Positions 23,134 through 30,464 of a stretch of DNA of 37,143 nt are shown here, one piece after another. The notes beneath the pieces are model-generated. The model had not been told where the DNA came from. It was given only the letters and a program-made list of their open reading frames with translations, and did no database searches. Each line of letters starts with the position of its first letter. Position 1 is the stretch's first letter. This DNA comes from Bacteroidota bacterium (lineage in GTDB: Bacteria > Bacteroidota > Bacteroidia > Bacteroidales > VadinHA17), in the NCBI GenBank assembly GCA_011374625.1, contig DRPN01000160.1, positions 1 through 37,143 of the forward strand. Reading direction: 5' to 3'. The position numbers were made by a program, and so were the translations under genes.

Positions 23134-23763
23134 TTATTTTTTTGGTACAAAATTATGTAAATATTTTGCTACGTCAGTATGTCCGTTCTTCCGGGCGAAA
23201 GATTCGGCATCGTCTCCGTCTTTTTCCCTGATCAAGGGATTGGCGCCATAAGCCAGCAATACCTTTACCACTTCCAGTTGTCCTTCAGCTGCGGCAAACA
23301 TCAGAGCGGTCCATCCGTCTCCTTTGGCAACAATATCCGGATCGGCCTTATGATCCAACAACACTTTCACGGTTTCGGGGAATGGCCCTGAAGCAGCATA
23401 GATAAGTGCAGATTGTCCCATATCGTCGAGGACATTAACTGTAGCTCTCTTTTCCAGCAAGTATTTTACAATATCGGTATGTCCGTTATAGGCTGCCAAC
23501 ATTAGGGCGGTACGTCCTTGCACACCAGCGGTGTTTACGTCCATGCCATTCCGGACTATCTGTTTTACCTTGTTGAGGTCTCCGTTCATGGCGGCATCCA
23601 AAAATGTTTCGACAATATCCATATTGTTTTCCTGTATGGCTGTCGGAATGTTTTTTTCTCCTGATTGTTTTTCCCTTTTGTTTTTGCAGTTATATGCTGC
23701 AGTAATTATCAGGATGAGGCTGAAAGAAAATACAAGGTGACGGATTTTTTGTGATTTTTTCAT
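23134..23763 (-). CDS. Ankyrin-repeat probable lipoprotein
   Basis: A 209-residue exported protein. A basic, hydrophobic N-terminus (residues 1-25) ends at AAYNC, a lipobox-like site with N rather than G, A or S before the cysteine, so lipidation at C26 is likely but not certain. Four or five ankyrin repeats follow from about residue 48, for example GRTALMLAAYNGHTDIVKYL and GWTALMFAAAEGQLEVVKVL. Ankyrin repeats mediate protein binding; the partner is unknown. The protein would face the periplasm or outer membrane. A -7 promoter element lies just upstream. The AI-2E-family gene upstream on the same strand ends 37 bp before it. Confidence 0.82.
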   Translation of the reverse strand: MKKSQKIRHLVFSFSLILIITAAYNCKNKREKQSGEKNIPTAIQENNMDIVETFLDAAMNGDLNKVKQIVRNGMDVNTAGVQGRTALMLAAYNGHTDIVKYLLEKRATVNVLDDMGQSALIYAASGPFPETVKVLLDHKADPDIVAKGDGWTALMFAAAEGQLEVVKVLLAYGANPLIREKDGDDAESFARKNGHTDVAKYLHNFVPKK

Positions 23764-23800: not shown

Positions 23801-24862
23801 TTATGAGTTACTTAATTGTTGTCTTTTTATGGATCGTAATTCGATACCATTGCCCAGGATGATGGATATCCATCGTGTTTCGGGTTGGGAATGCAGAATG
23901 ATTTTGATAACAAGTGTGATGGGTATAGAGAGGAACATCCCGACAGGACCAAGGATCCAGCCCCAGAAAATCAGCGAAAGGAAAACAATCAACACAGATA
24001 AGCCCAATCCTCTTCCCATGACACGGGGTTCGATAACACTACCGATCAAAAAGTTTATAGCCACATACAGGAGAGTGACAGCAATGGATTCTGGCAGACC
24101 GAATTGTACAAGGGTGAGAATGATAGGAGGGATAGCAGCGATCAGTGAGCCAATGCTGGGGATATAATTGAGCATAAAGGCAACGACACCCCACAGAAGT
24201 GCATAGTCAATGCCGGCAATGGCCAGGGCTCCTCCGAGAATGATCCCTGTGGAAGCGGAGGTAATGGATTTGATGAGCATGTAGTGATTTAATTGCTCGT
24301 TTATCTCATGGATATACTTTAATTTCTTTTCATCTCTGGCGATAAATTTTAGTTTGGCATTGAATATATTGGATTCGATAAAGATGAAAACAATCGTCAA
24401 TAAGATCAGCAAACCGTTGGAGAGAATATCACTAAAACTCTTCAGGGCAATGCCCACGAATCCCATGATCTTTGCGGGATCAAAGAAGTTATTCAATTGT
24501 TGCTGATCAATATGCATCCCGAATTTTTGGGATAACATGATGAGCTGATCCCTGTAGATGATGAGTTTTTCATTATAAAAAGGAATCCTGTCAGAAAAGT
24601 TCTGGACTGAAACAGTGATCATAGTGACCAGCAGACCGATAAAAACAAGAATAAACAAAAGAATAACGGCAAGAGACAGCCATCCGGGCACTCCCTTTTT
24701 TTGTAATGCATTGGCGAAAGGTTTGAATATAATAACAATGAAGAGGGCCATCAGAAAAGGAACGATGATGTTGGATGCTACTTTAATTCCTGCAAGGACA
24801 ATGACCAAAGAGGCCAGAATCCACAAGACAGATGACGTTTTTTGTTTGTTTATTGTTTTCAT
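23801..24862 (-). CDS. AI-2E family transporter, copy 1
   Basis: A 353-residue polytopic inner-membrane protein of the AI-2E/PerM/TqsA family. Members have been linked to autoinducer-2 export or cation/proton exchange, so substrate prediction is unsafe. Two N-terminal membrane helices flank IVPFLMALFIVIIFKPF (about 30-46); a soluble central part follows (about 85-150), then a C-terminal cluster of helices with the family signature LNYIPSIGSLIAAIPPIILTL (about 232-252, shown in part) and EPRVMGRGLGLSVLIVFLSL. It closely resembles copy 2 (25129-26157) along its whole length. The 266-bp gap between them suggests separate control. Confidence 0.88.
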   Translation of the reverse strand: MKTINKQKTSSVLWILASLVIVLAGIKVASNIIVPFLMALFIVIIFKPFANALQKKGVPGWLSLAVILLFILVFIGLLVTMITVSVQNFSDRIPFYNEKLIIYRDQLIMLSQKFGMHIDQQQLNNFFDPAKIMGFVGIALKSFSDILSNGLLILLTIVFIFIESNIFNAKLKFIARDEKKLKYIHEINEQLNHYMLIKSITSASTGIILGGALAIAGIDYALLWGVVAFMLNYIPSIGSLIAAIPPIILTLVQFGLPESIAVTLLYVAINFLIGSVIEPRVMGRGLGLSVLIVFLSLIFWGWILGPVGMFLSIPITLVIKIILHSQPETRWISIILGNGIELRSIKRQQLSNS

Positions 24863-25128: not shown

Positions 25129-26157
25129 TCAGAGTTCACTGATGTCCGATCCGTCTCCCAGTAAAACAGCGATCCAGCGTTTTTGGGGTTGTGCCTGCAT
25201 GATAATCTTAAAAACAAGAGTGATAGGCACTGAGAGCAACATTCCTACCGGTCCGAGTAGCCATCCCCAGAATATCAAAGATAGGAAGACAATCAGCACG
25301 GAAAGTCCCAGCCCTTTACCCATCACCTTTGGTTCGATATAATTCCCGATTACGAAGTTGATAACCAGGAAAATTACCGTGACACCAATGGCTCCGGGAA
25401 TTCCGAACTGAATAAGTGCTAGGATAATGGGTGGAATGGCAGCAATTAGGGAGCCAATGTTGGGAATATAATTCAGTAAAAAAGCAATAAGTCCCCACAA
25501 TATGGCAAAGTCCAGCCGGATCAAAGCCAGTGCTATTCCGATGATGATTCCTGTACCGGCCGAGATGACTGTTTTGATCATCATATAATTGTTTACCTGA
25601 TGGTTAATTTCATGAAAATATCTTAGGGTTTTTTCGTCTTTGGTTATGACTTTTATTTTGTCAGGGAATATGTTGGTTTCTATAAAAATAAAAATTACGG
25701 TCAGCAGGATTAGGATGCTGTTGGAAAGTATGTCACTGAAGTTGGTTAAAGCTCCTGCTACAAAACTCATGATCTTGGCAGGATTCAGAATCGAAGTCAG
25801 TTGGTCTTTTTCGGATATGCCTAATTTTCTTGATAACAGGACTAGTTCATCTCGGTAACTGTTTAGTTTTTCATTATAAAAAGAGAGATTTTCCGAAAAA
25901 CTTTGAACCGATACGGAAATAATTGTAACCACCAAGAACCCGAACAACAAAACGATGATTGAAATGATGGTGAAAGTCAACCAACGGGGAATACCTTTGT
26001 TTATCAATGAATCGGAGAAGGGTTTAAAGATGATCACAATAAACAGGGACAATAAAAAAGGGGTAATGATGGAAGCGGAGATCTTGATGCCGGCAAGGAT
26101 TATAACGATATAAGCTAAAGAATCCAGGCCTATAGTGGATCTTTCAATGTTTTTCAT
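25129..26157 (-). CDS. AI-2E family transporter, copy 2
   Basis: A 342-residue paralogue of copy 1 with the same layout: N-terminal helices around IITPFLLSLFIVIIFKPF, central soluble region, and C-terminal helices with LNYIPNIGSLIAAIPPIILAL-type signature and EPKVMGKGLGLSVLIVFLSL. It begins 35 bp after the stop of the octahaem cytochrome gene, with no promoter visible in the gap, so it may be the last gene of the respiratory transcript. Both proteins end in a short soluble tail (KRWIAVLLGDG here, TRWISIILGNG in copy 1). What they transport is unknown. Confidence 0.88.
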   Translation of the reverse strand: MKNIERSTIGLDSLAYIVIILAGIKISASIITPFLLSLFIVIIFKPFSDSLINKGIPRWLTFTIISIIVLLFGFLVVTIISVSVQSFSENLSFYNEKLNSYRDELVLLSRKLGISEKDQLTSILNPAKIMSFVAGALTNFSDILSNSILILLTVIFIFIETNIFPDKIKVITKDEKTLRYFHEINHQVNNYMMIKTVISAGTGIIIGIALALIRLDFAILWGLIAFLLNYIPNIGSLIAAIPPIILALIQFGIPGAIGVTVIFLVINFVIGNYIEPKVMGKGLGLSVLIVFLSLIFWGWLLGPVGMLLSVPITLVFKIIMQAQPQKRWIAVLLGDGSDISEL

Positions 26158-26192: not shown

Positions 26193-28550
26193 TTATTTGC
26201 CGTTAAGGATGTTCAGAATATTTTTTCCGGCAGGATTCTGCGGATATTTTTCTGTCAGGAGGGAGGCATAGCGCCTGGCCTTGTCTTTGTCTCCCAAATG
26301 TAGGTAAAATGTAGCGGCGGCTAAGAGATAATCAAAATTGTCCGGTTCGGCCTGCAGACATTTTAACAGGTATTTTTCAGCTTCGTTTTTCTTCCCCATT
26401 TGTTGATACAGCAATGCAATATTATAGTTGATCCGGATATAGTCAGGCATGCGTCGGACAGCTTCCAGGAGATAACTCAGGGCTTTGTTATAATCTTTTT
26501 TCTCGGCCATGAGAAGTCCTAGATAATAGTATCCCTGATCAAAATCCGGTTCGTGGTGAATAACATCCAGAAGCATTTTCTCGGCTTTGTCATTTTGTCC
26601 GGTTTGATTGTACAGCAAAGCAAGATTGATCTTGGCCGGGAAAAAGAGATTGTCTATACGTATGGCTTCTTCGTAATTGGTTATGGCATTGGCTGTTTGT
26701 CCCAGGTTGGCATATAACATGCCCAGATTGTGCCGGCTGGAGGCAAAATCTCCCATATAGAGCATACTTTCCTGGTACTCTTTCAGCGTCTTGTCAAATG
26801 CTTTCTGGTATTTTCCGTTTATCTGACGACGGGGCAGGGAAGAGAGCCGGAAGGCAGCCTGTATCCTCACCGCCTTTACCGGATCGTTCAGCATGGGAAG
26901 GAGTGCTTCTTTGAATTGTTCTTGTGAAAGAATAGGAAGGCTGCGGACTGCTGCTTCACGGATAATGGATTCGGGATCACTGAAAGCCTGTTGGATGGCA
27001 TTAAAGCTTTTCTGGTTAGGGTAGTTTTGTAATAAGGCGACAGCCGTAGCACGTACAATAACCGGATGAAGAATGTCTCTGATGATCAGGATCAGGCTGT
27101 CCTGTGCTGCAGGATCGCTTTCTCTGCCGCGGGCCAGTATTTCCCCGTAATGGTGCCGTCGGCTCTTACCATACCATTCACGGATATATGATTCGGCCCA
27201 TGCAGGGGTTTTGTCTGTATGACATTGATTACAGGCGTTAGGGGTGCCATATTTCATTGACAGATCGGGACGGGGAATGCGCAGGCTGTGATCCCTGCGG
27301 AAATCCACTCCCATATAATACCTGCCGGGCATATGGCAGTTAACACATTTGGCTCCTTCGCCTACCTGCACCACCTTTTTCCCATGTTCCAGTACCAGAG
27401 GATTTCCGGGTTCTCCTGTTTTTTTGTGAAAAGTATGCTGATAGGTGTCATAAACATCAGCCCGGTGACACTGCAGACATAACTGGTTATCATCAATAGG
27501 CAGGATGGTTTTCAGGCTGTGTACATTGTGGCAGTCGCTGCAATGGACCCGCAAATGTTCCTGGTACATGTAACTTTGTGTAAACGATCCGTAAACATAG
27601 TCTTCATCGAGGATTTGTCCATCGGGGAAATATTGGGGTGCGAGAAGTAATTGAGGGATCATGTAATCCAGCAAATCCTTATGAAAATCATCCGGCGTAA
27701 AATCTCCCATCACCGAACGCCGGGCATGACACCGCGCACACTGCTTGACTTCTTCGACAGCATCGATTTCTGCGGTGTTGACCGTGAGGCCGTAGTTTAT
27801 ATTTTGCGGACGATCCATTTCGGGTAAATTGGCCCATTTGATGTGTTCAGACCCGGGTCCGTGGCATGCCTCACAGTTGACGTCAATATCTGTCCAGGTG
27901 GTATGGTACGTATGTTTGTCGGGATCATACCCTTTTTTCAGGTTGGTACTGTGACAGTCGGCACACATGCCGTTCCAGTTTTGTCCGTTATTTGTCCAAT
28001 AAAGCCAATTGTCCGGTGTCAGGTTTTCATTCTTGTAAATCGAATCCGGCAGGCTGAACCAGGAATGAGTGATGGTATCCCAGGCTATGGGCAGGCATTG
28101 CAGTCTTCCACTATCAAAAGGAACCAGATATTGTTGCAGGGGCCTGACCCCGAACGTATGGGTGATCCGGAAATCCCCGGGTTTTCCGCCAGGCCCTTTG
28201 GTATGCACATAAAACTTTCCTTCTTTTTTAAAAAAACGACTGGTGTCTCCTTTCATGTCAACAAAAATCGTGTTGTTAAAGTCTCCTTCCACACTTTTAT
28301 CTGTGGCATAGTCCATGGCACGATCATGGTCGGAGCCATGCCAGTCGTGATATTCATTCGGATGACAGTCGATACACTGATCACCCCCTACATAATATGC
28401 TGTCTCATTCGCGTTTCCGGATGTGGAATTGTTTCCGGTCAGGTAAAAATACGCCAGATACAATGGGAAAGAGATGAAGATGACCACGGTGGCAATGAAT
28501 CCTGCTTTTTTCCAGAGGTAGTTTTCCGGTGTATTTTTTGTTTCAGGCAT
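26193..28550 (-). CDS. Octahaem cytochrome c with HEAT-like and TPR repeats
   Basis: A 785-residue membrane-anchored periplasmic protein. One transmembrane helix spans about residues 15-37. Eight CxxCH haem sites follow at C59, C196, C226, C271, C337, C358, C402 and C440. The first (YVGGDQCIDCHPNEYHDWHGSDH) resembles cytochrome c554-type domains. HEAT-like helical repeats occupy about 485-570, and four or five TPRs about 600-780 (for example AITNYEEAIRIDNLFFPAKI). It overlaps the Rieske gene by 8 bases (28543-28550), so the two are coupled in translation. The likely role is to accept electrons from the Rieske protein and pass them on, taking the place of cytochrome c1; the acceptor is unknown. 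Nitrite or hydroxylamine reduction cannot be excluded. Confidence 0.87.
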   Translation of the reverse strand: MPETKNTPENYLWKKAGFIATVVIFISFPLYLAYFYLTGNNSTSGNANETAYYVGGDQCIDCHPNEYHDWHGSDHDRAMDYATDKSVEGDFNNTIFVDMKGDTSRFFKKEGKFYVHTKGPGGKPGDFRITHTFGVRPLQQYLVPFDSGRLQCLPIAWDTITHSWFSLPDSIYKNENLTPDNWLYWTNNGQNWNGMCADCHSTNLKKGYDPDKHTYHTTWTDIDVNCEACHGPGSEHIKWANLPEMDRPQNINYGLTVNTAEIDAVEEVKQCARCHARRSVMGDFTPDDFHKDLLDYMIPQLLLAPQYFPDGQILDEDYVYGSFTQSYMYQEHLRVHCSDCHNVHSLKTILPIDDNQLCLQCHRADVYDTYQHTFHKKTGEPGNPLVLEHGKKVVQVGEGAKCVNCHMPGRYYMGVDFRRDHSLRIPRPDLSMKYGTPNACNQCHTDKTPAWAESYIREWYGKSRRHHYGEILARGRESDPAAQDSLILIIRDILHPVIVRATAVALLQNYPNQKSFNAIQQAFSDPESIIREAAVRSLPILSQEQFKEALLPMLNDPVKAVRIQAAFRLSSLPRRQINGKYQKAFDKTLKEYQESMLYMGDFASSRHNLGMLYANLGQTANAITNYEEAIRIDNLFFPAKINLALLYNQTGQNDKAEKMLLDVIHHEPDFDQGYYYLGLLMAEKKDYNKALSYLLEAVRRMPDYIRINYNIALLYQQMGKKNEAEKYLLKCLQAEPDNFDYLLAAATFYLHLGDKDKARRYASLLTEKYPQNPAGKNILNILNGK

Positions 28551-29094
28551 AGGTCTCCTGTGATTTGTTAAAATGTTTACGCAGGATGGGTTTTTCCAGA
28601 TTCACCTTTATTACATCGTTTTCAATTTTGATAGGGTAAATATTAAGAGCCCGTGTAGCCGGAGGGTTTACGACTTCTCCACTGAGGGAAAACATAGAAT
28701 GATGGCAGGGACAAATAAATTCTTTTTTCTCTTCATCCCATTCCACGCTGCACCCCAGATGAGTACACTTGATGGATACAGCCAGAAACCCTCCGTCCTC
28801 AAGATGACAGATATAAAGTCGTCCTGACCGGTAAGGAAGGACAGATCCTACCGGTACATCCGATACCTGAGCTATCTCGATAAAATTTCCGGTTTCTTCT
28901 TTCTTTTGTTTTTTCCTGCCCGAGCTAATAAAAGGGATGCTCAGACCTGCCAGCTCAACGCCTGCAGCCAGGGCTACCCACCCCCAGATCTTCCTGAAAA
29001 AGCTACGACGGGAAGTGTCCGGAGTACCTTTGGATGCAAGTTTCTCCTTTTCAGGATGCGGATTTTGTTTAATATGAGATATCTTTTTTGTCAT
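28543..29094 (-). CDS. Rieske iron-sulphur protein
   Basis: A 183-residue subunit of a quinol-oxidising cytochrome b complex. The N-terminus has a twin-arginine signal/anchor (SRRSFFRK, residues 28-35, then a hydrophobic segment to about 57). The 2Fe-2S site is intact: CTHLGC at 110-115 and CPCHHS at 128-133. C110, H112, C128 and H131 bind the cluster, and C115 and C130 form the usual disulphide. The second box has H where most proteins have G (CPCHGS). The gene starts 18 bp after cytochrome b and overlaps the multihaem cytochrome gene. Confidence 0.93.
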   Translation of the reverse strand: MTKKISHIKQNPHPEKEKLASKGTPDTSRRSFFRKIWGWVALAAGVELAGLSIPFISSGRKKQKKEETGNFIEIAQVSDVPVGSVLPYRSGRLYICHLEDGGFLAVSIKCTHLGCSVEWDEEKKEFICPCHHSMFSLSGEVVNPPATRALNIYPIKIENDVIKVNLEKPILRKHFNKSQETYA

Positions 29095-29112
29095 AAGAAA
29101 AGGGTGTTAAAA

Positions 29113-30393
29113 TTAGATTTGCCAGGGCCACATAAGAGCCATGCCGGGTCCTCTGAAAAAAAGTCCTGTCAGGGATAGTACCGTATAAGTTATGAGAAAA
29201 TAAGCATATATAGCCTGTACGGTTTCATTGGTGGAAGGATCGTATTTTTTACGCAAGGAAAGCAAATACAGATAGAAGAAAAAACCATATAACAATACGG
29301 GAAACAACCCCTCTGAGAGAATGGAGGGGAGAGAAGGAAACCATAAGTTGAAATGGATGAGGTATTCATCGCTGACGATAAGCAGAGGATTCAAAAGAAA
29401 GGCAAAAATAACTGAAAAAATAACCATTTTTCGGCCTTTTGGGGAAGAAAACCAGAAGCCTGCATTGTTTTTGGGATAGTGAAGCCAAGGCAGGTAAAAT
29501 AAAAACCCCAGAAGAAAAAGTGGAATCAGAATTGCTCCGACAAACGGATGAAAGTGCATAAGCATTTCCTGTATGCCGATAAAGTACCAGGGAGCCTTAA
29601 CAGGATTCGGACTATAAGCCGGATTGGCTCGTTCGCGTAAGGGGGCATTCAGGAAAATGGCCAGGATAAAAACAAAAGCCAGTAGAATAAGACCCGCAGC
29701 TATTTCTTTAACAACCAGATTGGGGACGGTAGGAATGAGACCTTTCTCGTCCTCTTTCCGGACACGGGGCGGAGCCACACCCCCCGCTTTACGGATTTTC
29801 CAAAAATGGAAAATCATTAAAATAACTAATGTGAGCGGGATAATAGCTGTGTGAAAAGTGAAAAAGTTTCTCAGCGTATTTCCGGTAACATCTTGTCCTC
29901 CCCGGATGAAGACAGTGATAGAATTACCGATGAGCGGGATGTATGAAAACATATTGGTGACTACCGTAACGGCCCAGTAGGACAATTGGTCCCAAGGCAT
30001 CAGATAACCTGTGAAGTTGAAAAACATAATCAGCAGGAACATGCATATGCCAATGATCCAGTTGCTGCTGCGTACGGGAGGATGAAATGCTTCGGTAAAA
30101 AAAACACGCAGCATGTGAAGAAGAGCAAGGACAATCAGCAACTCCCCGGAAAGATGATGTATGTTACGGACATATTTTCCGAAAAGCACCTTGTCCTGAA
30201 GAAACAGAATGGAATCGTAGGCTTTCTCCGGTGATGGGATATACACAAACTTCAACAGGATCCCTGTGAAGATCTGCAAAAGGATCAACGTCAAAGTCAT
30301 TCCTCCCAGCCCGTAAGTATAAGTAAACCGGATGGAAGCTCTGGATACTTTTTGGGGATGAATGTGTAAAAGAAAAGTCAGTTTTTTTTTCAT
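29113..30393 (-). CDS. Cytochrome b (bc/b6f-type)
   Basis: A 426-residue integral membrane subunit with both the haem-binding N-terminal half and the subunit-IV-like C-terminal half in one chain. Haem ligands are the histidine pairs in HHLSGELLIVLALLH (13 residues between) and HTAIIPLTLVILMIFH (14 between, as in cytochrome b6). The quinol-site motif is APWYF where most have PEWY(F). I chose the ATG at 30393 (MKKKLTFLLHIHPQ): the frame stays open to a TTG at 30459, but that codon is part of the -7 promoter element. It is first in an operon with the Rieske and octahaem genes. Confidence 0.92.
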   Translation of the reverse strand: MKKKLTFLLHIHPQKVSRASIRFTYTYGLGGMTLTLILLQIFTGILLKFVYIPSPEKAYDSILFLQDKVLFGKYVRNIHHLSGELLIVLALLHMLRVFFTEAFHPPVRSSNWIIGICMFLLIMFFNFTGYLMPWDQLSYWAVTVVTNMFSYIPLIGNSITVFIRGGQDVTGNTLRNFFTFHTAIIPLTLVILMIFHFWKIRKAGGVAPPRVRKEDEKGLIPTVPNLVVKEIAAGLILLAFVFILAIFLNAPLRERANPAYSPNPVKAPWYFIGIQEMLMHFHPFVGAILIPLFLLGFLFYLPWLHYPKNNAGFWFSSPKGRKMVIFSVIFAFLLNPLLIVSDEYLIHFNLWFPSLPSILSEGLFPVLLYGFFFYLYLLSLRKKYDPSTNETVQAIYAYFLITYTVLSLTGLFFRGPGMALMWPWQI

Positions 30394-30456
30394 GAACTCC
30401 GGTTTCAATAATAAATCGGCTTTTGCCGGTGCAACACCTGCATAATTTTTTTCATG

Positions 30457-30464
30457 CAAATATA
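30457..30464 (-). promoter_or_regulatory. -7 element for the respiratory operon
   Basis: Read on the minus strand this is TATATTTG, a perfect TAnnTTTG match, 63 bp before the cytochrome b ATG at 30393. The -33 position is weak, which could mean an activator is needed. Confidence 0.6.

Follow-up and report, generated by a model that had tools for sequence, protein, structure and literature searches.

Three adjoining genes for a cytochrome b, a Rieske protein and an octahaem cytochrome

The stretch of DNA analysed here, 37,143 nucleotides long and called the window below, is a contig (DRPN01000160.1; C13) of the draft genome of a Bacteroidales bacterium, assembly GCA_011374625.1. On its minus strand lie three adjoining genes, in the order cytochrome b, Rieske protein and a protein that combines eight CxxCH motifs with HEAT and TPR repeats, hereafter OctTPR.

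29113..30393, minus strand: cytochrome b, 426 amino acids from the ATG at 30393 (open reading frame calls and Pfam)
28543..29094, minus strand: Rieske 2Fe-2S protein with a twin-arginine-like N-terminus, RRSFF (open reading frame and Pfam)
26193..28550, minus strand: OctTPR, an octahaem c-type cytochrome with HEAT and TPR repeats, 785 amino acids

Open reading frames (ORFs) and Pfam agree on this arrangement, which an initial annotation of the window had put forward. The Pfam matches are Cytochrome_C554, HEAT_2 and TPR for OctTPR, Rieske for the second gene and Cytochrome_B for the third, the C-terminal domain of cytochrome b scoring below its cut-off (19.7 vs 20.7 bits). A TTG at 30459 is an alternative start for cytochrome b (ORF 29113-30459) and would give 448 amino acids. 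The Rieske and OctTPR ORFs have eight bases in common (28543-28550), as the annotation had said. Its claim that no cytochrome c1 or mono-haem gene is present also stands: by reading, none adjoins the trio in the window, and the draft genome (2.72 Mb, 205 contigs, 97% complete, 6% contaminated) has no match to PF00034. PF00355 has a single match in that genome, the window's Rieske gene.

Recurrence of the trio across phyla

A scan recovered at least 588 relatives of OctTPR. The counts that follow refer to the best 80 of the 588, that is, to the closest relatives only, and a gene is called upstream when BLAST matched it no more than 4.5 kb away on the same strand. The nearest relatives are from Bacteroidales metagenome-assembled genomes (MAGs). 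The initial annotation had proposed looking for the three-gene arrangement across Bacteroidota, and the trio does recur: cytochrome b and Rieske genes both lie upstream of OctTPR in 63 of the 80 loci. Only a Rieske gene is upstream in four more, three of them at a contig end and the fourth (L087) with a run of 100 N bases just upstream of the Rieske gene. Neither gene is upstream in the remaining 13, of which four (L081, L093, L127 and L146) have more than 5 kb to inspect and nine lie within 0.9 kb of a contig end. Three of these nine offer fewer than 100 bases upstream; the other six (L103, L117, L123, L126, L133 and L138) offer 230-730 bases with no Rieske signature, and L117 and L138 have a lipobox.

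By their record titles, the 80 loci come from Bacteroidota, Desulfobacterota, Ignavibacteria, Gemmatimonadota, Latescibacterota, Thermoanaerobaculales, Gammaproteobacteria, Xanthomonadales, Woeseiaceae and one Caldithrix MAG. An arrangement confined to Bacteroidota is ruled out by the trio in several other phyla. Most of the 80 are MAGs, in which a contig may have been misplaced; strains with the trio, all among the 63, are Thermophagus xiamenensis DSM 19012, Saccharicrinis aurantiacus, Labilibacter sediminis, Desulfoluna spongiiphila, D. butyratoxydans and strain NaphS2.

A set of 40 genomes (the window's own and 39 relatives) was also examined, with OctTPR matches at E ≤ 1e-20 in 21 of them. 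Rieske and cytochrome b genes adjoin OctTPR in 14 of the 20 loci outside the window, those about 40% identical or more, with the window's gene order in 11 of the 14 (11 of the 20 relatives examined). Among the 14, a contig end cuts cytochrome b in L028 and L029, and OctTPR is cut in L035 and L037. Neither gene adjoins OctTPR in the remaining six, which are 26-29% identical; of these, L042 reaches its contig end upstream and L040 sits on a 4.8 kb contig.

Spacing (64 loci) and distance correlation (51 loci) were measured on loci whose genes were recovered by sequence patterns. From the Rieske stop to the nearest in-frame OctTPR start there are at most 20 bases in 52 of the 64 loci, and gaps of up to 580 bases are found in true operons. 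Correlations among the distance matrices of cytochrome b, Rieske and OctTPR's haem part are 0.81-0.84; the repeat part of OctTPR correlates at 0.79-0.81 with the rest, and the two parts of OctTPR with each other at 0.81. Because correlated distances also arise from shared descent, these values demonstrate joint inheritance, not contact.

Several other genes recur near the trio. Two tandem AI-2E family transporter genes (window 23801-24862 and 25129-26157, minus strand) follow it in all six same-genus loci examined. An ankyrin-repeat lipoprotein-like gene (window 23134-23763, minus strand), downstream of the trio, may encode an accessory protein; of six same-genus loci, one is cut and the other five all have such a gene, and in L073 and L074 it lies at most 80 bases after OctTPR. 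One particular sulfatase is encoded no more than 6 kb from OctTPR in 11 of the best 80 loci, in several phyla (L076, L084, L090, L096, L099, L113, L114, L119, L127, L130 and L133). With L127:4153-5688 as reference, the ten others are at least 56% identical, two of them partial, and a HAD-family protein accompanies the sulfatase in four of the 11. Distant sulfatases (23-32%) occur near six more of the best 80 loci and near 6 of 19 solitary loci from the phylum sample described below. A functional or co-transfer link is possible from these counts, which carry no control for chance.

The haem domain of OctTPR is related in sequence to OcwA and MccA

The CxxCH motifs of OctTPR stand at residues 59, 196, 226, 271, 337, 358, 402 and 440, and the features of the protein are as follows.

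28440..28529, minus strand: predicted N-terminal membrane helix, residues 8-37 (structure model)
28362..28376, minus strand: haem 1, CxxCH (motif)
28053..28316, minus strand: beta domain, residues 79-166 (model), between haem 1 and haem 2; OcwA and MccA share a beta domain located here
27951..27965, minus strand: haem 2, CxxCH, aligning with the open haem 2 of OcwA (by motif counting)
27861..27875, minus strand: haem 3, CxxCH within CEACHGPG..H (motif, alignment)
27726..27740, minus strand: haem 4, CxxCH (motif)
27528..27542, minus strand: haem 5, CxxCH, corresponding to OcwA haem 6 by alignment
27465..27479, minus strand: haem 6, CxxCH (motif, alignment)
27333..27347, minus strand: haem 7, CxxCHMP (motif, alignment)
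27219..27233, minus strand: haem 8, CxxCH, with longer spacing in some relatives
26853..27059, minus strand: HEAT repeats, residues 498-566 (Pfam)
26232..26747, minus strand: TPR repeats, about residues 602-773 (Pfam, model, structure search)

Eight haem motifs are present in all 80 relatives when counted as CX2-4CH. An apparent seven-haem variant in some of them was discarded, as a count of CX2CH had overlooked the longer spacings of haem 8. A profile built from an alignment of 54 haem-domain sequences (the window and 53 of the best 80 loci) matched OcwA (6i5b) at 3e-22, 6qvm at 2e-11, MccA (4rkm) at 1.4e-5 and c554 at 3.6e-5. By profile similarity, then, the haem domain belongs to the OcwA/MccA branch of the NrfA/c554/HAO superfamily. 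The model of full OctTPR (mean predicted local distance difference test, pLDDT, 86.5) places beta strands after haem 1 and before haem 2, at residues 79-166, the feature common to that branch. In a structural second look (VIA) with a haem-only model of pLDDT 65, 6i5b ranked first (Z 7.1 over 282 residues), 6qvm second (Z 5.9) and MccA (4rkm and 4rkn) seventh and eighth (Z 3.6). A structure search with the full model was dominated by TPR folds, and two PHROGs families of unknown function match the TPR part.

MccA sulfite reductase carries an unusual haem motif, CX15CH. This special motif is missing from OctTPR, where haems 1-7 are CX2CH in all 75 aligned sequences and haem 8 is CX2-4CH in 80 of 80.

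By motif counts in the alignments, haems 1, 2 and 3 of OctTPR pair with the haems of the same number in OcwA, and haems 5-8 pair with OcwA haems 6-9. Haem 4 falls on OcwA haem 4 only through a stretch of negative score, and the missing haem 5 of OcwA is what remains; the MccA alignment leaves OctTPR haem 2 uncovered. According to the available parts of the OcwA paper, to which our statements about that protein are limited, hemes 1-4 and 6-9 of OcwA correspond to MccA, both proteins have their active site at haem 2, the open haems of OcwA are 2 and 5, and the beta-sheet domain common to the two proteins spans residues 75-156 of OcwA (PMC6703420). Since it lacks the counterpart of OcwA haem 5, OctTPR has the haem topology of MccA, and its own haem 2 is likely to be an open haem, judging by its alignment with haem 2 of OcwA. 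Thus OctTPR resembles both OcwA of Thermincola and MccA of Wolinella (6i5b, 4rkm; PMC6703420) in haem order and in the beta domain between haems 1 and 2, and shares the CEACHGPG..H and CHMP regions with OcwA (PMC6703420, 6i5b). It differs in its HEAT/TPR repeats, membrane anchor and operon with Rieske and cytochrome b, and has eight haems where OcwA has nine. Given this kinship with reductases, OctTPR may be a terminal enzyme and not only a wire.

Six histidines outside the motifs (75, 236, 344, 372, 375 and 421) are invariant in the 54 sequences, compared with eight haems, and D310, G311, E316, S322, F323 and M328 are among the residues that do not vary in the stretch from haem 4 to haem 5. 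In the model, the membrane helix ends about 18 residues ahead of the first helix of the haem domain, a spacing that would hold the haems close to the membrane surface, at the position of c1 or f.

The quinol side and the electron acceptor

Two motifs of the quinol-oxidising partners are of particular interest.

29584..29598, minus strand: Qo-site motif KAPWY (no Glu) of cytochrome b
28702..28767, minus strand: Rieske cluster ligands C110, H112, C128 and H131; the second motif is CPCHHSMF, with Phe where bc1 has Tyr

Conservation was counted without a motif filter over the cytochrome b (63 loci) and Rieske (67 loci) sequences recovered by BLAST. The haem-b histidines 101/115 (448-residue numbering) are kept in 54 of 54 covered loci and 203/218 in 56 of 56; these two pairs, with the PF00033 match, place the protein in the Rieske/cytochrome b superfamily. 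The Qo motif of bc1 and b6f is PEWY, and in b6f proper a cysteine of helix A holds a covalent extra haem. Across 59 covered loci KAPWY is conserved at K in 59, A in 59, P in 58, W in 59 and Y in 58, and the helix-A cysteine, at the position given by an alignment with b6, occurs in none of 53 (Gly in 51, Ala in 2). The missing cysteine and the KAPWY motif therefore make the trio neither a bc1 nor a b6f proper, and in place of their c1/f subunit stands the octahaem protein.

The initial annotation had read the Rieske 2Fe-2S ligands as intact, and the two Cys and two His ligands, the disulfide cysteines and a serine are indeed kept in all 66 covered loci, as expected of the Rieske superfamily. 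The position of the bc1 tyrosine holds Phe in 64 and Tyr in 2. A Kuenenia Rieske protein with the same Phe is given a potential of +335 mV in the available part of its description (PMC12954380), and Phe in the sequence is therefore no proof of low potential. We assume from the lineage that the quinone is menaquinone.

The draft genome contains no PF00034 (mono-haem cytochrome c), PF14537 or COX1, with the limit that the draft is fragmented and other cytochrome families were unsearched. Its matches to PF13435 (C554) and, below cut-off, to PF02335 (NrfA) lie only inside OctTPR, and its CydA match is a frame of 113 amino acids. That the families tried yield no obvious c-type acceptor downstream favours OctTPR as the end point. 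OcwA turns over nitrite, slowly, and hydroxylamine (PMC6703420), and for that reason our first guesses at an OctTPR substrate would be nitrite or hydroxylamine, with an extracellular acceptor as the alternative.

Solitary OctTPR and the two types of N-terminus

In a sample of 296 genomes of the phylum, OctTPR (E ≤ 1e-60) was found in 20 and cytochrome b (E ≤ 1e-25) in 109, both together only in the window's genome. With one lipobox rule applied to all OctTPR N-termini, none of the 63 operon forms among the best 80 has a lipobox, nor does any of 10 from the other loci (6 of the 10 being the same records as loci among the 80). A hydrophobic N-terminal stretch is present in 62 of the 63; the exception, L144, has a frame that is cut or starts late. 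A lipobox is present in all four solitary forms among the best 80 and in 16 of 19 others (20 of 23), and in the three divergently transcribed forms. L161 and L165, solitary forms that fail the rule, still have a cysteine following the hydrophobic stretch. The type of N-terminus thus follows gene context, with exceptions: anchored with b/Rieske, lipoprotein-like when solitary.

On a quick haem-domain tree of 98 rows (the 80 best relatives, the window and 17 others), where contig-end loci were left uncounted and two divergent rows and the Rieske-only rows were scored as operon, operon and solitary states change five times, and solitary forms lie both outside the operon group and nested within it. 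HEAT/TPR repeats are also present in the remote solitary form L038. The initial annotation had suggested that this part could dock the partner; in view of L038, the repeats are no dock specific for b/Rieske. Another solitary OctTPR gene, in L154, lies near cydB and, by reading, a cydA-like gene, with one gene between.

Known Rieske/cytochrome b systems with multihaem partners

Rieske/cytochrome b complexes with multihaem partners are known from anammox bacteria, Geobacter, Caldithrix and Methanoperedens (PMC12954380, PMC5877670, PMC2825233, PMC5317091, PMC4683180); the comparisons below are confined to the available parts of these papers. In the Kuenenia complexes Kuste4569-4574 and Kustd1480-1485, a hexa- or octahaem c protein likewise replaces cytochrome f, one complex has an extra HAO-like octahaem subunit, and one Rieske protein has Phe for Tyr, as in the window. 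They differ in that their cytochrome b is b6-like, with four helices, that subunit IV-like proteins are separate and that an NAD(P) oxidoreductase subunit is present, and the available text describes no OcwA/MccA-type octahaem protein with HEAT/TPR repeats (PMC12954380). The Geobacter ext cluster (ExtO Rieske, ExtP cytochrome b, and ExtQ) also joins Rieske/cytochrome b to multihaem cytochromes, but ExtP and ExtQ are separate, the partners have 5, 10 and 12 haems, there is a porin, and those parts of the papers describe no TPR octahaem protein (PMC5877670, PMC2825233). Membership of the window's cytochrome b in the Ext family was rejected, as its NCBIfam scores are under the cut-offs for both ExtP (261 bits vs 290) and ExtQ (47.7 vs 150).

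In Caldithrix abyssi, Rieske/cytochrome b adjoins an octahaem nitrite reductase, with feeding proposed to be direct or via NapM; the locus is one of epsilon-Hao and Nap, and the text at hand describes no HEAT/TPR protein (PMC5317091). Methanoperedens has a menaquinol-oxidising Rieske/cytochrome b with multihaem c partners, but these are two pentahaem cytochromes, and a gene for cytochrome c1/f is reported as well (PMC4683180). Other combinations appeared among our own loci. G002, of the same genus as the window's host, and G008 have a second Rieske/cytochrome b locus (L065 on G002:C93 and L066 on G008:C117) with an octahaem protein of 509-512 amino acids, which in L065 resembles hydrazine dehydrogenase/multi-haem cytochromes (E 1.4e-17, far below cut-off). 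L067 (G018:C65) holds a further Rieske/cytochrome b layout from the same family, a cluster of Rieske, ferredoxin-like, b6, subunit IV, 844-residue octahaem and mono-haem genes. We found no account of the cytochrome b-Rieske-OctTPR trio in the open-licence literature; the trio seems undescribed, while multihaem partners of Rieske/cytochrome b are themselves already known.

A model for the trio and its alternatives

Our results somewhat favour a model in which the trio encodes a Rieske/cytochrome b complex that oxidises menaquinol, with an octahaem protein of OcwA/MccA type serving as c subunit and probably being a reductase in its own right. Menaquinol would be oxidised at the Qo site of cytochrome b; as in a Q cycle, one electron would cross the b haems and the other would reach the octahaem domain of OctTPR by way of the Rieske cluster. 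Held to the membrane by its N-terminal helix, OctTPR would replace cytochrome c1/f as a member of the NrfA/c554/HAO superfamily of OcwA/MccA type, its HEAT/TPR repeats sitting where OcwA has C-terminal helices, and haem 2 would probably be an open active site. With haem 2 open, the complex would be a self-contained quinol:acceptor reductase. The initial annotation had also proposed a quinol oxidoreductase with an octahaem protein in place of c1, wired to an acceptor. The replacement of c1 gains from the operon with b/Rieske, the tight spacing and the correlated distances, and loses from the often solitary occurrence of the family; the role of wire is called into question by the profile kinship with OcwA/MccA, which suggests a possible terminal enzyme.

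Several observations weigh against the model of a combined complex. In the phylum sample, 19 of the 20 genomes with OctTPR lack cytochrome b at E ≤ 1e-25, and none of those 19 OctTPR loci has Rieske or cytochrome b genes beside it (up to 6 kb on each side), so that OctTPR there has no need of this complex. With the six remote relatives that likewise lack an adjoining pair, this overturns the expectation that the octahaem protein always accompanies b/Rieske: the rule fails for the OctTPR family, although it largely holds for the b/Rieske-linked subfamily. In G009, G030 and G037 (L033, L034 and L035), Rieske and cytochrome b genes lie on the opposite strand, and the gene that follows them encodes an octahaem protein of another kind, built with C7-like and class-I cytochrome c domains, while OctTPR carries a lipobox and is transcribed divergently. 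L148 (genome G179) has neither a lipobox nor a cytochrome b found in its genome, and L103, L123, L126 and L133, near contig ends, lack both a lipobox and a Rieske gene in the 230-390 bases upstream, where L126 has another gene. These four may be further exceptions or have wider gaps, and such Rieske-less contig-end loci weaken the link between N-terminus and context a little. On the protein side, the glutamate of PEWY is missing from the Qo motif, the structural Z scores are below 8 and come from a weak haem-only model (pLDDT 65), plain Foldseek with that model gave no match at E ≤ 0.001 and no cytochrome in 50 rows, and the His-His pair over haem 2 of OcwA has no counterpart in OctTPR.

The strongest competitor, which we nevertheless regard as unlikely, keeps OctTPR as the c subunit but makes it only a wire, with all haems saturated and electrons leaving to a periplasmic or outer-membrane partner. 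The gene trio and the N-terminal anchor speak for it, the six invariant non-motif histidines could ligate most haems, and OcwA itself is described as a cell-surface electron-transfer protein that is slow on nitrite (PMC6703420, in the part available). Against a wire, haem 2 aligns with an open haem, the invariant histidines are fewer than the haems, and the host's own genome has no other c-type cytochrome in the families searched, others being untried. We consider it still less probable that OctTPR is an independent reductase or carrier, co-transcribed but outside the complex, with a diffusible carrier moving the electrons. The solitary relatives suggest such independence, as do the three genomes where OctTPR is divergent beside a Rieske/cytochrome b pair with its own octahaem protein, and L148 and perhaps the four contig-end cases, in which OctTPR is anchored and has no adjoining Rieske gene. 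However, no operon form seen has a lipobox, the genes are tightly spaced, the window's operon has no other c subunit, and its genome has no mono-haem carrier of family PF00034. Least probable, and by our estimate very improbable, is a complex working in reverse, in which OctTPR would oxidise a donor, as HAO and hydrazine dehydrogenase relatives do, and pass electrons toward menaquinone. The hydrazine dehydrogenase-like octahaem protein beside Rieske/cytochrome b in G002 is consistent with this direction, and OcwA both oxidises and reduces hydroxylamine (PMC6703420, available part). Rieske/cytochrome b complexes, though, normally oxidise quinol, and the carriers of the trio include sulfate reducers, in which a high-potential donor is not evident.

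Implications

More tentatively than the model of a quinol-oxidising complex with an octahaem reductase subunit, we propose that the trio might represent a widespread three-subunit enzyme in which a bc complex has merged with its terminal reductase, an OcwA/MccA-type octahaem protein bearing an active-site haem and fed directly with menaquinol electrons, found in several phyla including sulfate reducers, with the solitary lipoprotein as its free-standing version. The trio is present in cultured strains, and these ideas are therefore testable in Thermophagus xiamenensis DSM 19012, Saccharicrinis aurantiacus, Labilibacter sediminis, the two Desulfoluna species and NaphS2. Domain annotation alone displays such a module merely as TPR/HEAT and C554 matches. 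If the proposal is true, quinol oxidation, proton translocation and terminal reduction would take place within one complex. Should an octahaem protein resembling terminal reductases regularly partner Rieske/cytochrome b in many phyla while tethered to the membrane, that would amount to a new respiratory module. The anchored and lipoprotein forms offer a natural comparison for asking how a bc complex gains or loses a terminal reductase.

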